From positions 1,116,001-1,180,000 of the forward strand of contig NZ_RKHG01000001.1 in NCBI RefSeq assembly GCF_003752415.1: 64,000 bases of DNA, read 5' to 3'. Positions 28,633 through 36,959 of the stretch are shown piece after piece. The notes beneath the pieces are model-generated. The model worked only from the letters and a program-made list of their open reading frames with translations, searched no databases and was not told the DNA's origin. Position 1 is the first letter of the stretch; each line of letters begins with the position of its first letter. Origin of the DNA: Luteococcus japonicus (GTDB lineage Bacteria > Actinomycetota > Actinomycetes > Propionibacteriales > Propionibacteriaceae). The translations under genes were made by a program, and so were the position numbers.

Positions 28633-29409
28633 TCAGCGGTGCTGGAAGTTCGGCTCGCGCTTCTCGACGAAGGCGGCCATCCCTTCCTTCTGGTCCTCGG
28701 AGGCGAAGGCCGAGTGGAAGACCCGACGCTCGTACAACACGCCCTGCTGCAGGTTGGTCTCGTAGGCCGCGTTCACCACCTCCTTGACCATGGTGGCCGC
28801 CACCTTGGACTTGGAGGCGATCAGCTCGGCGGTGCTGATCGCCTCGTCCAGCAGCTCGGCGGCGGGCACGATCCGGGCCACCAGGCCCGAGCGCTCGGCC
28901 TCCTCGGCGTCGATCATCCGGCCGGTGAGGCACATCTCCATCGCCTTGGCCTTGCCGACCGCGCGGGTCAGGCGCTGCGAGCCGCCCATGCCGGGGATGA
29001 TGCCCAGGTTGATCTCGGGCTGGCCGAACTTGGCCTTGTCACCGGCCAGGATGAAGTCGCACATCATCGCCAGCTCACAGCCACCACCGAGGGCGTAGCC
29101 GTTCACCGCGGCAATCACCGGGGTGCGACGGCTGGTGAACTGGTCCCAGCCGGCAAACCAGTCAAGCGTGTACATCTGGGTCGCCGACTTCTCCGACATC
29201 TCCTTGATGTCGGCGCCGGCAGCGAAGGCCTTCTCGGAGCCGGTCAGCACGAAGCAGCCGATCTCCGGGTTGGCGTCCAGCTCGGCGGTGGCTGCCACCA
29301 CCTCACGCATGGTCAGGTCGTTCAGGGCATTCAGCGCCTTGGGCCGGTTGAGGGTGATGATGGCGACCCGTCCGCGGGTCTCCACCAGGATGTTCTCGTA
29401 GCTGCTCAT
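28633..29409 (-). CDS. Enoyl-CoA hydratase
   Basis: Crotonase-fold hydratase adding water across the 2,3-double bond of enoyl-CoA, here probably methacrylyl- or tiglyl-CoA. The 258-residue product has the oxyanion-hole segment [24 protein letters not shown] (first catalytic Glu) and [17 protein letters not shown] (second catalytic Glu), so both acids of the hydratase pair are present. It is last gene of mmsA-hibch-mmsB-ech, starting one base after the mmsB stop. Confidence 0.93.
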
Positions 29410-30315
29410 TCACGCGTCCTTCGATGTATTGGCACGGATCTCGTTGATGATGGCCGAGAAGTCCTTGGTCGACCCGTCGCCCTCGTTGAAGTGACGGTAG
29501 ACCTCGACGGCCAGCGAACCCATCTTGGCATCCGTCCCCGTCAGCTCGATCGCGGAGGCGGCCAGGCCCAGGTCCTTGGTCATCAGCGCGGTCATGAAAC
29601 CGGGGGCGTAGTCCCGGTTGGCGGGACTGGTCGACACCGGACCGGGCACCGGGCAGTTGGTGTTCAGTGCCCAACAGGAGGCGGTGGCATTGGAAGCGAC
29701 GTCGAAGAAGGCCTGGTGATCCACGCCCAGCGACTCGGCCAGCACGAAGGCCTCGCTGACGGCGATCATGTTGACCGCCAGCACCATGTTGTTGCACAGC
29801 TTCACCGCCTGGCCGGCCCCGGAACCGCCGCAGAGCACGATCTTCTTGCCCATCGCCTCCAGCACGGGGCGGGCCGACTCCAGATCCTGCGGCTCGGCGC
29901 CCACCATGAAGGTCAGGGTGCCGGCCTCGGCGCCGGTGGTGCCACCGGACATCGGCGACTCGATGGCGCGGTGACCCGCCGCCAGGGCCATCTCGCGGGC
30001 CTGGCGGGCATCCACCACGTCGACGGTGGAGCAGTCGATGAACAGGGTGTCCGCCGGGGCATTGCCCAGCAGACCCTCCGGGCCGTCGTAGGCGGCCTTC
30101 AGGATCTTGCCATTGGGCAGGCTGGTGACCACGAACTGCGCGCCTCGGACGGCCTCGGCCTGGGACTCACAAGGGCTCACCCCCGCGGCGGCGGCACGCT
30201 CGCGCGCCTCGGGCACCGGGTCGTAGCCGCGGACGGTGAAGCCGGCCTTGGCGAGGTTGGCGGCCATGTGGGCACCCATGTTGCCCAGGCCGATGAAGGC
30301 GACGGTGGAAGTCAT
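29410..30315 (-). CDS. mmsB: 3-hydroxyisobutyrate dehydrogenase
   Basis: NAD-dependent oxidation of 3-hydroxyisobutyrate to methylmalonate semialdehyde in valine breakdown. The 301-residue product has the N-terminal Rossmann motif VAFIGLGNMGAHMA, the substrate loop ESPMSGGTTGAEAGTL and the catalytic Lys in GSGAGQAVKLCNNM. The operon position between the hydrolase and hydratase genes supports this over other beta-hydroxyacid dehydrogenases. Confidence 0.93.
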   Translation of the reverse strand: MTSTVAFIGLGNMGAHMAANLAKAGFTVRGYDPVPEARERAAAAGVSPCESQAEAVRGAQFVVTSLPNGKILKAAYDGPEGLLGNAPADTLFIDCSTVDVVDARQAREMALAAGHRAIESPMSGGTTGAEAGTLTFMVGAEPQDLESARPVLEAMGKKIVLCGGSGAGQAVKLCNNMVLAVNMIAVSEAFVLAESLGVDHQAFFDVASNATASCWALNTNCPVPGPVSTSPANRDYAPGFMTALMTKDLGLAASAIELTGTDAKMGSLAVEVYRHFNEGDGSTKDFSAIINEIRANTSKDA

Positions 30316-30341
30316 GTCCTCATCCTTTTCGTGTCAGGTGG

Positions 30342-31397
30342 TCAGGCTCGGGCGGCCAGGTTGGGTTCGATGATCCGATCGTCGGCGATGGGAGCGAAGA
30401 CAGCCTCCACTGTCGCCTCGTCCACCTCGGCGAGGGTGGCTGGCTGCCACTGCGGATTGCGGTCCTTGTCGACCAGTTGGGCACGGATGCCCTCGACGAA
30501 GTCATGGCCGCGCTGCATTTTCACCGAGACCCGGAATTCCGTGTCGAGGGCCTCGGCCAGGCTCTGACCCCGCGCCCGGCGCAGTGACTCGAGGGTCACC
30601 TTGAGCGCCAATGGGCTGTTGCGGCGAATGCGCTTCGCGGCATCTCGGGCCCAGTCGGCGTCCACCTCGTCCAGTCCCGACAGGATCTCCTCGACGCTCT
30701 GGCGGTCATAGACCTGCTCGACGAGGTCGTGCTGTGCGGTGAATCCGGCCGGGGCTGGCCGGGCGTGGACACCCACCGCCGCATCAGCGTCGCCGCTCTC
30801 GCAGAGTTCGTCCACCAGGGCCTCGAGCTGCTCGGCAGGGACGTACACGTCGGCCAGGCCGCACTCGATGGCCTCACCCGCTCCCACATGCGCGCCGGTG
30901 AGCGCCAGATGGGTTCCCAGGTGGCCGGGCACGTGCGTCAGCAGGTGCGACCCGCCGACGTCGGGGACGAAGCCAATGCCGGTCTCGGGCATGCCCACCC
31001 GGGTGTCGTCGGTGACGATCCGGTGCGAACCGTGGGCGGATACGCCGATGCCGCCGCCGAGCACGATGCCGTTCATGATGGCGACATAGGGCTTGGGGTA
31101 CTGCGAGATGGTGAGGTTCAGGGCGTACTCGTCGGCCCAGAACTTCGCTCCGTCGGTGCCATGGGCCAACGCGTCGTGGTAGAGACTCACCACGTCGCCG
31201 CCGGCGCACAAGCCACGCTCGCCCGCCCCACGGAGCAGGACGACGGCAACCCGGCCATCCCCCCGCCATTGCTCGAGCACCTCGACCATGGCGTCGACCA
31301 TGGTCTGGTTGAGCGCATTCATGGCCTTGGGACGGTTGAGGGTGATGATGCCGGCCCGGCCGCGGATCTCGGTGAGAACCTCGTCGGTACCGGTCAC
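30342..31397 (-). CDS. 3-hydroxyisobutyryl-CoA hydrolase (crotonase fold)
   Basis: Releases 3-hydroxyisobutyrate from its CoA ester, the unusual thioester hydrolysis step of valine catabolism. The 351-residue product is longer than a plain hydratase. It has GERGLCAGGDVVSLY, MNGIVLGGGIGVSAHG and the HIBCH-type MPETGIGFVPDVGGSHLL, plus the C-terminal segment MQRGHDFVEGIRAQLVDKDRNPQW. The GTG start overlaps the mmsA stop (GTGA). Confidence 0.92.
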   Translation of the reverse strand: MTGTDEVLTEIRGRAGIITLNRPKAMNALNQTMVDAMVEVLEQWRGDGRVAVVLLRGAGERGLCAGGDVVSLYHDALAHGTDGAKFWADEYALNLTISQYPKPYVAIMNGIVLGGGIGVSAHGSHRIVTDDTRVGMPETGIGFVPDVGGSHLLTHVPGHLGTHLALTGAHVGAGEAIECGLADVYVPAEQLEALVDELCESGDADAAVGVHARPAPAGFTAQHDLVEQVYDRQSVEEILSGLDEVDADWARDAAKRIRRNSPLALKVTLESLRRARGQSLAEALDTEFRVSVKMQRGHDFVEGIRAQLVDKDRNPQWQPATLAEVDEATVEAVFAPIADDRIIEPNLAARA

Positions 31398-32899
31398 GAC
31401 TGGTCACCCCGCGGCATCACGAATGCCGAGCCGTCCTTGGCGCCGGCTGCCCAGCGCGATGTGACGGTCTTGGTCTTGGTGTAGAAGCGGAAGGCGTCGG
31501 GGCCGTGCTGGTTCAGGTCACCGAAGCCGGAGGCCTTCCAGCCACCGAAGGTGTAGAAGCCGATAGGCACGGGGATCGGGACGTTGATGCCCACCATGCC
31601 GGTGTCGACGCGGGTGGCGAAGTCACGGGCGGCGTCTCCGTTGCGGGTCATGATCGAGGTGCCGTTGCCGTATTCGTGGTCGCTGACCAGGGCGAGGGCT
31701 TCCTCGTAGTCCTTGGCGCGTACGATGCACAGCACCGGGCCGAAGATCTCGTCGGTGTAGACCGACATGTCCTTGGTGACCTTGTCGAACAGGGTGGGGC
31801 CGATGAAGTAGCCCTTCTCGTGGCCCTCGAGGGTGAAGCCACGGCCGTCGACGACCAGCTCGGCCCCGGCGGCCTCGCCCTGGCCGATGTAGTCGACGAC
31901 GCGGTCCAGTGCGGACTGGGCCACCAGCGGTCCGTAGTCGGCCTTGGGATCCTCGGACGAGCCGACGGTGAGCTTCTCCGCACGCTCCTTCATCTTCTGC
32001 ACCAGGGCGTCGGCGGTCTCGTCCCCCACCGGGACGGCCACCGAGATGGCCATGCAGCGCTCACCGGCCGAACCGTAGGCGGCGCCCACCAAGGCGTCGG
32101 CCACCTGGTCGAGGTCTGCGTCGGGCATGATCACCATGTGGTTCTTGGCACCGCCGAAGCACTGGGCGCGCTTGCCAAGCTCTGCGGCGCGGGTGTAGAT
32201 GCTCTGGGCGATCGGGGTGGAGCCGACGAAGCCGTAGGCCTTGACGCGCGGGTCCTCGAGCAGCGCGTCGACGGATTCCTTGTCGCCGTTGACGACCTGG
32301 AAGATGCCGGCCGGCAGCCCGGCCTCGATCCACAGCTCGGCCAGCCGCATCGGGACGCCGGGATCGCGCTCGGAGGGCTTGAGGATGAAGGCGTTCCCGG
32401 CGGCCAGCGCAGGGCCGCACTTCCACAGCGGGATCATCGCGGGGAAGTTGAAGGGCGTGATACCGGCCACCACGCCGAGCGGCTGGCGCATGGAGTAGGT
32501 GTCGATGCCCCTGCCGACGGTGTCGGAGTACTCACCCTTGAGCAGGTGCGGGGCGGCCATCGCGAACTCCACGACGTCCAGGCCACGCTCGATGTCCCCC
32601 ATCGAGTCGGCGATCACCTTGCCGTGCTCACTGGAGAGCAGGGCGGCCAGCTCGTCGAGGTTCTCTCGCACCAGTTCGACAAAGCGGCCCAGGATGCGGG
32701 CTCGCTTCTGGGGGCTGGTGGCCGCCCAGGCGGGCTGGGCGGCGGCGGCCACGTCGACCGCCCGGGTCACCTCGTCGCGCGTGGCCAGGGCCACGCGGCC
32801 CTGCACCTCTCCCTTCGAGGGGTTGTAGATGTCCGCGAACCGGCCGGACGCGCCCTGCACGATCTCGCCGCCGATGTGGTGGTGCACTTCACGAGTCAT
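31394..32899 (-). CDS. mmsA: CoA-acylating methylmalonate-semialdehyde dehydrogenase
   Basis: Converts methylmalonate semialdehyde, NAD and CoA to propionyl-CoA and CO2, the last step of valine catabolism. The 501-residue product has VAGITPFNFPAMIPLWK, the NAD site FVGSTPIAQ, and the catalytic Cys282 in SAGERCMAIS. The C-terminal IPVPIGFYTFGGWKASGFGD is typical of MMSDH. ATG at 32899 follows GGAGGAGCC. It is first gene of the four-gene operon, preceded by a CRP-like site and a palindrome. Propionyl-CoA can feed a methylmalonyl-CoA/propionate route. Confidence 0.95.
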   Translation of the reverse strand: MTREVHHHIGGEIVQGASGRFADIYNPSKGEVQGRVALATRDEVTRAVDVAAAAQPAWAATSPQKRARILGRFVELVRENLDELAALLSSEHGKVIADSMGDIERGLDVVEFAMAAPHLLKGEYSDTVGRGIDTYSMRQPLGVVAGITPFNFPAMIPLWKCGPALAAGNAFILKPSERDPGVPMRLAELWIEAGLPAGIFQVVNGDKESVDALLEDPRVKAYGFVGSTPIAQSIYTRAAELGKRAQCFGGAKNHMVIMPDADLDQVADALVGAAYGSAGERCMAISVAVPVGDETADALVQKMKERAEKLTVGSSEDPKADYGPLVAQSALDRVVDYIGQGEAAGAELVVDGRGFTLEGHEKGYFIGPTLFDKVTKDMSVYTDEIFGPVLCIVRAKDYEEALALVSDHEYGNGTSIMTRNGDAARDFATRVDTGMVGINVPIPVPIGFYTFGGWKASGFGDLNQHGPDAFRFYTKTKTVTSRWAAGAKDGSAFVMPRGDQS

Positions 32900-32962: not shown

Positions 32963-32980
32963 TAGTTGGACATCCAAATA
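32963..32980. promoter_or_regulatory. Palindrome upstream of mmsA, candidate MarR operator
   Basis: TAGTTGGACATCCAAATA holds the near-perfect palindrome TTGGA-CA-TCCAA (32966-32977), a size and symmetry typical of MarR-family operators. It lies just beyond the CRP-like site. The MarR encoded at 27105 is the obvious candidate ligand. Confidence 0.5.
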
Positions 32981-33022
32981 CAAGCGTCCGGTTCCAGTCC
33001 GTGGAATCCAGGCCTCCGGCAG

Positions 33023-33090
33023 CCCTACGCTTCCAACAGCCCTACGCTTCCAACAGCCCTACGCTTCCAACAGCCCTACGCTTCCAACAG
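33023..33090. repeat. Tandem array, four perfect 17-bp units, at the thiolase 3' end
   Basis: The unit CCCTACGCTTCCAACAG is repeated four times without change (33023, 33040, 33057, 33074). On the minus strand each unit contains the last thiolase codons (TTG GAA GCG) and its stop codon TAG. The fourth unit is the real gene end; three extra copies extend downstream. Confidence 0.95.
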
Positions 33091-34299
33091 CAAGGCTTCA
33101 CCCTGGCCTCCTCCCCCACACAGGCCGATCGCACCCCGCCGGGCCCGCCCATTGGCGATCTGGTGGGCCAGGTGGACGGCCAGCCGGCCACCCGACGCGC
33201 CGATCGGGTGCCCGATGGAGATGCCGCCACCACATTTGTTGACCTTCTCCAGGCCGACGCCCAGCTCCCGGGCGGAGTGGATGACGACGGCGGCGAAGGC
33301 CTCGTTGATCTCGACCAGGTCCAGGTCGTCGACGACCCACCCCTGGCGCTCCAGCGCCTGGGCGATGGCCCGGGCCGGCTGCGCCTGCAGGGAGGCATCG
33401 GGCCCGGCCACCTGGCCGCAGGCACGCACGGTGGCCATCACCGGCCACCACTCGCGCTCGGCACGCTCCCGCGTAGTGAGGACCACGGCGGCGGCGCCAT
33501 CGCAGATGGCCGAGGCATTGGCTGCCGTGATGCCGCCGTCGGGCGTGAAGGCCGGCCGCAGCCTGGCCAAGTCCTCGACCCTCGATTCGGGGCGCAGACC
33601 CTCGTCCCGCTCGACCACGACGTCACCCTTGCGGCCCCTGACGACCACCGGGACCACCTCGCGGGCAAGGATTCCCTGCTCCCACGCCTGATGCGCACGA
33701 CGATGGCTGTCCACGGCGAACTCGTCCTGCTCCCGACGAGTGACCGGGTAGCGGCCCGCATACTGCTCACTGAGTTCACCCATCGGGATGCCGAGGTCCG
33801 CGGCCGTGAGGCCATCGAAGGCCATGTGGTCCACCACACCACTGGCGCCATAGGACTTGCCCGCACGCAGGTCCGGGAGGAGATGAGGCGCGCGCGACAT
33901 GGATTCCATGCCACCGGCCACCACCACCTCGGCCTCCCCACAGCGAAGCAACCTGGCGGCGTCGATGATGGCGGTCAGCCCGGACAGGCAGACCTTGTTC
34001 ACGGTCACGGTGTGGGCACCGGCAGGGACACCTGCCCCCAGAGCCGCCTGCTTGGCGGGATTCTGGCCGGCTCCGGCCTGGAGCACCTGGCCGAGCACGA
34101 CGGACTCAACCACGCCCGGATCGATGCCGCCGGCATCGAGGGCCCCCTTGATCGCCATCGCCCCCAGGTCCGTCGCGGAAATGCTCGACATCTGCCCCAG
34201 CAGGCGCCCCGACGGCGTCCTCCTGGCGCCGACCACCACCACGTCATCCGGCCGATCCTCGGCGCGGGCTGTGCGGGCCGCAGTGCTCGATCCAGACAT
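33076..34299 (-). CDS. Thiolase (acetyl-CoA acetyl/acyltransferase)
   Basis: Cleaves 3-ketoacyl-CoA with CoA, or condenses two acetyl-CoA. The 407-residue product has nucleophile Cys104 in VNKVCLSGL, NVNGGAI-type context replaced by NKCGGGISIGHPIGASGG (catalytic His) and the terminal CGGGGQGEALLLEA with the second Cys. It starts with ATG after AGAGG. It is divergent from deoD behind a TetR dyad and a CRP-like site, linking it to the acyl-CoA dehydrogenase operon. It could cleave 2-methylacetoacetyl-CoA from isoleucine. Its last codons lie in a minisatellite. Confidence 0.92.
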   Translation of the reverse strand: MSGSSTAARTARAEDRPDDVVVVGARRTPSGRLLGQMSSISATDLGAMAIKGALDAGGIDPGVVESVVLGQVLQAGAGQNPAKQAALGAGVPAGAHTVTVNKVCLSGLTAIIDAARLLRCGEAEVVVAGGMESMSRAPHLLPDLRAGKSYGASGVVDHMAFDGLTAADLGIPMGELSEQYAGRYPVTRREQDEFAVDSHRRAHQAWEQGILAREVVPVVVRGRKGDVVVERDEGLRPESRVEDLARLRPAFTPDGGITAANASAICDGAAAVVLTTRERAEREWWPVMATVRACGQVAGPDASLQAQPARAIAQALERQGWVVDDLDLVEINEAFAAVVIHSARELGVGLEKVNKCGGGISIGHPIGASGGRLAVHLAHQIANGRARRGAIGLCGGGGQGEALLLEA

Positions 34300-35245: not shown

Positions 35246-35253
35246 TGCGGACC

Positions 35254-35378
35254 TCAGGCCTCGGTCACTCCGCGAGGCTCAGGCCTCGGTCACACCGCGA
35301 GGCTCAGGCCTAGGTCACACCGCGAGGCTCAGACCTCGGTCACACCGCGAGGCTCAGGCCTCGGTCACACCGCGAGGC
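35254..35378. repeat. Tandem array, five 25-bp units, abutting the ahpF stop codon
   Basis: Five units begin at 35254, 35279, 35304, 35329 and 35354; copies differ by one base each at most (for example CACTCCG for CACACCG in the first). Read on the minus strand each unit begins TGAGCCTCGCGG. A ninth-base partial copy of the pattern continues into the ahpF stop and last codons (35379-35387), so the array was seeded from the gene end. Confidence 0.95.
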
Positions 35379-36959
35379 TCAGGCCTCGACGGCCTGCTTG
35401 GTGCGAATCAGGTAGTCAAAGGCGCTGAGGGCTGCGCTGGCACCGGAACCCTGGGCGACGACGATCTGCTTGTACGGAATAGTGGAGCAGTCACCGGCGG
35501 CGAAGACGCCGGGAACATTGGTCTCACCCCGGCCATTGACCGCGATCTCGCCCCGGGCGGCCAGCTCGACACCGGAGTCCCTCAGCCAGTCCGTGGTGGG
35601 CAGCAGGCCGATCTGCACGAAGATGCCGGACAGGGGCAGCTCCTTCAGCTCGCCGGTGGCGCGCACCTTGTACTTCAGGCCGGTCACCTGCGTGCCGTCG
35701 CCGACGACCTCGGTGGTCTGGGCGCCCAGGATCACGTCGACATTGGACATGGAGCGCAGCTTGTCCTGCAGGACACCGTCGGCACGCATCTCGTCCATGA
35801 ACTCGATCACCGTGACGTGGTCGACGATGCCGGCCAGGTCAATGGCGGCCTCGACGCCGGAATTGCCGCCGCCGATCACCGCGATCCGCTTGCCCTTGAA
35901 CAACGGACCGTCGCAGTGCGGGCAGAAGGTGACGCCCTTGTTGCGGTACTCCTCCTCGCCCGGCACCCCCATCAGGCGCCACTTGGCGCCGGTGGCGATG
36001 ATGACGCTACGGGCCTTGAGGGCGGCATCCTCACCGAACGTGACGGTGTGCAGCCCACCTTCGGTCGTGGCAGGCACCAGGGCGGTGGCGCCCTGGTTCT
36101 TGATCACGTCGATCTCGTACTCCCCGACATGCTGCTCCAGGGCGGCAGCGAACTTGGGACCCTCGGTATGGGGCACCGAGATGAAGTTCTCGATGGCCAT
36201 GGTGTCGAGCACCTGACCACCGAAGCGCTCCCCCACCAGACCGGTCCGGAAGCCCTTGCGGGCGGTGTAGATGCTGGCCGCGGCACCGGCGGGGCCCTGG
36301 CCGATGACCAGCACCTCGTAGGGTTCGCGCTCGTTGAGCTTGGCGGCAGCCTTGGCGCCGGCGCCGGCGTCCAGCTTGGCGGCGAAGTCCGCCATGTCCA
36401 TCCGGCCAGTGGCGAAGGGCTCCCCGTTGAGGTAGACCTGCGGCACGGTGAGGATGTTCTTGGCCTTCACCTCGTCCTGGAAGAGCGAGCCCTCCACGGC
36501 GGTGTGCCTGATCCGCGGATTGAGCACGGACATCGCATTCAGGGCCTGGACGACCGTCGGGCAGTTCTGGCAGGTCAGCGACATGTAGGTGGTGAACTCG
36601 TAGTCACCGTCGATGTCCTTGACCTGCTGCATCAGGTCGGCGTCCTCCTTGACGGGATTGCCGCCCACCTGGACGAGCGCGAGCACCAGCGAGCTGAACT
36701 CGTGGCCGAGCGGGATGCCAGCGAAACGCACACCGACGTCGGTGCCGGTGCGGATGATCTCGAAGGAGGGCCTGCGCTCGTTAGTTCCGTCGGTTCGAAC
36801 GGTGATCTTGTCCGAGAGCGCGGCGATCTCCTGGAGCAGGCCGAGCATCTCGGTGGACTTGGGACGCTCGTCGAGGCTGGCGACAAGCTCGATGGGCTCG
36901 ACGACCTTGGTCAGCAACTGCGAGAGCTGCTCGGTGAGTGCGGAATCTAGAACGGCCAT
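35379..36959 (-). CDS. ahpF: Alkyl hydroperoxide reductase subunit F
   Basis: NADH-dependent flavoprotein that reduces the disulfide of AhpC. The 526-residue product has two N-terminal thioredoxin-like folds with the redox pair Cys130/Cys133 (SLTCQNCPT), an FAD domain ([14 protein letters not shown], about 217), the catalytic pair Cys346/Cys349 (FCPHCDG) and an NAD domain ([14 protein letters not shown]). Length fits full AhpF of about 520 residues. It lies 138 bases after ahpC with an intervening hairpin. Its stop codon touches a minisatellite. Confidence 0.96.

Follow-up and report, generated by a model that had tools for sequence, protein, structure and literature searches.

The thiolase gene of Luteococcus japonicus ends in a perfect tandem array of a 17-bp unit, and this array is an ordinary bacterial minisatellite, ordinary in the density at which such arrays occur in the genome as well as in its position. 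The reading favored here, with a probability of roughly 0.88, is that of a neutral, VNTR-like minisatellite that was born locally by slippage and has been tolerated as its first copy ends translation.

Structure of the array

The stretch of DNA that was analyzed (hereafter the window) comprises 64,000 nucleotides, within which positions 33023-33090 are made up of exactly four identical copies of CCCTACGCTTCCAACAG, each unit reading CTGTTGGAAGCGTAGGG on the minus strand. In the window, Tandem Repeats Finder reported the full array (Table 1) with a period of 17, 4.2 copies, 100% matches and a score of 144, corresponding to a layout of 4 x 17 + 4 bp in which a partial fifth copy contributes the additional 4 bp, CAGC, identical to the word that opens the array. 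The maximum score obtained in 60 first-order Markov random sequences of 64 kb each was 69, compared with 144 for the array, which is far beyond chance. The perfect fourfold repetition described in the initial annotation thus holds to the letter. Minisatellites are sequences in which a unit of about 10-100 bp stands head to tail in two or more copies, beyond chance, and the thiolase-end array is one of them.

Exact matches to the unit in the 3.45-Mb chromosome are confined to the four tandem copies, and the next best site has two mismatches, so that a dispersed repeat family was rejected for this unit. An assembly or sequencing artifact, with the true chromosome carrying a different copy number, is very unlikely. 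Perfect short repeats can indeed be miscounted in assemblies, but the 72 bp of the array are below the usual read length, so that even short reads should cover them from end to end, and the genome was recovered as one contig.

Table 1 Features of the thiolase gene end and the neighboring downstream gene (window positions).
Feature	Position	Strand	Basis or remark
Acetyl-CoA C-acyltransferase (thiolase)	33076..34299	-	NCBIfam TIGR01930, 402 bits vs cut-off 240.55
Perfect 17-bp tandem array, 4.2 copies	33020..33091	-	CAGC at either boundary
Copy 1, original thiolase gene end	33074..33090	-	TAG stop at 33076-33078; homologous C-termini
Copies 2-4, added 3′ of stop	33023..33073	-	51 bp = 17 codons; original frame back in copy 4
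mmsA-like CoA-acylating methylmalonate-semialdehyde dehydrogenase	31394..32899	-	TIGR01722, 651.6 bits vs cut-off 448.5; likely start 32899

The thiolase gene end and its homologs

The C-terminus of the thiolase is intact (GGGGQGEALLLEA, then TAG), and its last codons, L-L-E-A-TAG, are encoded by copy 1 of the array. It had been proposed that translation ends in the first unit and that three copies follow, and this arrangement was confirmed, as the stop codon lies inside copy 1 and copies 2-4 are found downstream, in the gap between the thiolase stop and the mmsA-like gene.

Thiolase 3′ ends were inspected at 110 loci (L002-L111), one being the window's own and three lacking a stop inside the fetched DNA. 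The thiolases of the nearest relatives finish in near-identical terminal residues (LLLEG, LLLEL and LLLEA), examples of homologous C-termini being GGTGQGDALLLEA and GGGGQGEALLLEG. As homologous thiolases share these end residues, copy 1 is the gene end as it was before the expansion, and copies 2-4 have been added to it. An array of at least four copies over the stop was seen at none of the 106 other thiolase gene ends, which are not all independent of each other, some loci having identical tails (e.g., L007 and L075). Weak repeats over the stop were present at two of the 106, namely at L025 (18 bp x 2.9, 79%) and L111 (8 bp x 2.0). In the one congener genome compared (G001, 79% complete), no clear ortholog of thiolase, mmsA or ahpF was found, the best matches reaching E-values of 1.3e-25 for thiolase and 1.0e-26 for mmsA.

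The extra TAG codons could alternatively act as back-up stops for ribosomes that read through the first one. Three units amount to 51 bp, so that any such ribosome would reach a TAG in the original frame in copy 4, having added 16 residues and ending again in LLEA. However, such a return to the original frame is inherent to any three 17-bp units, and a back-up role is extremely unlikely.

Frequency and placement of tandem arrays

Tandem arrays (period ≥8, ≥2.5 copies, ≥85% matches) were collected from 864 kb of the 3.45-Mb genome (25%; the window and 40 stretches) and from 400 kb of each of three relatives (G004, G006 and G022), with genes called by a simple script using codon statistics from long ORFs. 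The own-genome sample contained 33 arrays, 16 inside called genes and 17 touching non-coding DNA, although a few coding arrays were possibly scored as intergenic owing to the gene caller (positions 2349-2472 of stretch L112 may be one). Arrays touching non-coding DNA occurred at 19.7 per Mb in this genome and at 20.0 per Mb in both G004 and G006, and on these figures the idea that this species has an excess of arrays across its genome was rejected. Perfect arrays with at least four copies made up 3 of the 17 in the non-coding-touching set, the thiolase-end array among them.

When arrays of matching lengths were placed at random, conditioned on not lying wholly inside a gene, 5.0 of the 17 were expected to cover a stop codon. 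This was the case for five (P of at least five = 0.58), which led to the rejection of any special placement at stop codons and means that an array at a gene end needs no special cause. Start codons, which were only roughly placed by the gene caller, were covered by none of the 17 arrays, while random placement expects 5.3 (P = 0.0015). Stops covered as often as by chance and starts not at all would fit a tolerance of arrays at gene ends and selection against them at gene starts. That the place or make-up of the array is remarkable is not supported, given the random level of stop overlap and a density equal to that in two of the three relatives.

In the own genome, the period was divisible by three in 14 of the 16 arrays within genes versus 4 of the 17 touching non-coding DNA. 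In G006, however, seven of eight non-coding arrays had a period divisible by three, which suggests coding stretches overlooked by the gene caller in that genome.

Two further observations concern repeats in these genomes. G022 (L192-L211), a relative from the same family, reaches a density of about 135 per Mb for arrays touching non-coding DNA, approximately seven times that of the others sampled, and many of its arrays have periods of 14-24 bp. In the L. japonicus genome, a sequence of the form CGCTCGGGTT...AACCCGAGCGG recurs intergenically, at times as 19-bp tandem arrays (L128:905-1009, L128:13714-13800 and L136:10636-10690), apparently a small family of palindromic repeats.

Downstream region and possible regulatory roles

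The mmsA-like gene is the next one downstream of the thiolase on the same strand. The region 28633-32899 is likely a valine-breakdown operon, with genes for methylmalonate-semialdehyde dehydrogenase, 3-hydroxyisobutyryl-CoA hydrolase, 3-hydroxyisobutyrate dehydrogenase and enoyl-CoA hydratase.

Located between two same-strand genes and roughly 120 bp upstream of the start of mmsA, the array could be a regulatory 3′ element that acts on the thiolase mRNA, through its 3′ end or its stability, or on the distance to the mmsA promoter region, with copy number tuning expression. A 12-bp inverted repeat, TTGGACATCCAA, found at 32966-32977 between the array and mmsA, would be in line with such a role. 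However, the 161 bases around the array fold with average energy (z -0.25; 79 of 200 shuffles folded at least as well), and no terminator-like or sigma-70-like site was detected on the minus strand between 32700 and 33300 by a scan that covers actinobacterial promoters poorly. A terminator or structured RNA at the array is therefore unsupported by folding energy and site scan, and the effects on the mRNA 3′ end considered in the initial annotation left no sign in either. The palindrome itself has one other genomic copy, located within a gene. A regulatory function of the array is accordingly regarded as improbable. Perhaps the inverted repeat is an operator of the valine-breakdown operon; a genome-wide operator role was discarded, as no regulon was seen and the sole other site is inside a gene. 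It is also highly doubtful that the thiolase mRNA 3′ end or the mms operon behind it is tuned by the number of units, which would make slippage a switch for the breakdown of branched-chain amino acids.

Proposed origin of the array

In the neutral, slippage-born minisatellite favored here, the one-copy ancestor would have carried the word CAGC twice, at a spacing of 17 bp and with 13 bp in between, on either side of the thiolase stop. Such a pair would be a usual seed for slippage duplication, and a replication slip or an unequal exchange between the CAGC words could have generated a 17-bp duplication. An array that both begins and ends with CAGC is what would be expected if the duplication started between such words. 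More slips between identical copies may then have led to four copies and kept them alike, and their identity, as seen in one assembly, fits recent expansion or homogenization. Copy 1 still provides the normal C-terminus and stop, with the added copies landing in untranslated DNA, and the array was probably tolerated because copy 1 already ends translation normally. We infer from these features that slippage was the cause, that the expansion is recent and that the array has no function.

With regard to DNA repair, a match to MutS was found in none of four genomes (this chromosome and three relatives), while all four gave a match to NucS. NucS-type repair would leave small loops uncorrected, and loops of 17 bases exceed the reach of most mismatch repair. 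The presence of NucS without MutS is thus at most permissive for array formation.

A second gene-end minisatellite (35253-35388; 25 bp x 5.4, 95%) lies 2.2 kb away, over the stop codon of ahpF (TIGR03140), and is absent at the gene ends of the ahpF orthologs of four relatives (60-68% identity). The neutral reading leaves this proximity unexplained and has to accept it as a coincidence, which counts against it.

Comparison with known repeat systems

By itself the array matters little, with a possible use as a marker for strain typing. A literature search covering titles and abstract openings returned nothing that points to the array locus. Bacterial VNTR or minisatellite loci serve in MLVA typing and are usually explained by replication slippage. 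The thiolase-end array resembles them in its head-to-tail copies, its unit of more than 10 bp and its intergenic or gene-end location, but while VNTR loci differ in copy number between strains, the present array is known from one genome only. MIRU elements of mycobacteria consist of tandem units at gene junctions and form dispersed families. The array shares with them the tandem units at a gene junction; a MIRU-like unit, however, occurs at several genomic places, whereas the 17-bp unit is found at a single one.

A further parallel is offered by Borgs, archaeal elements whose tandem arrays keep the reading frame inside genes and mostly do not do so intergenically, with slippage discussed as their origin (PMC9879509). 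The arrays of this genome behave likewise, in that those within genes keep the frame and intergenic ones mostly do not, but unlike the Borgs, which carry pervasive arrays (PMC9879509), the sampled part of this genome has a density of about 20 per Mb for arrays that touch non-coding DNA.
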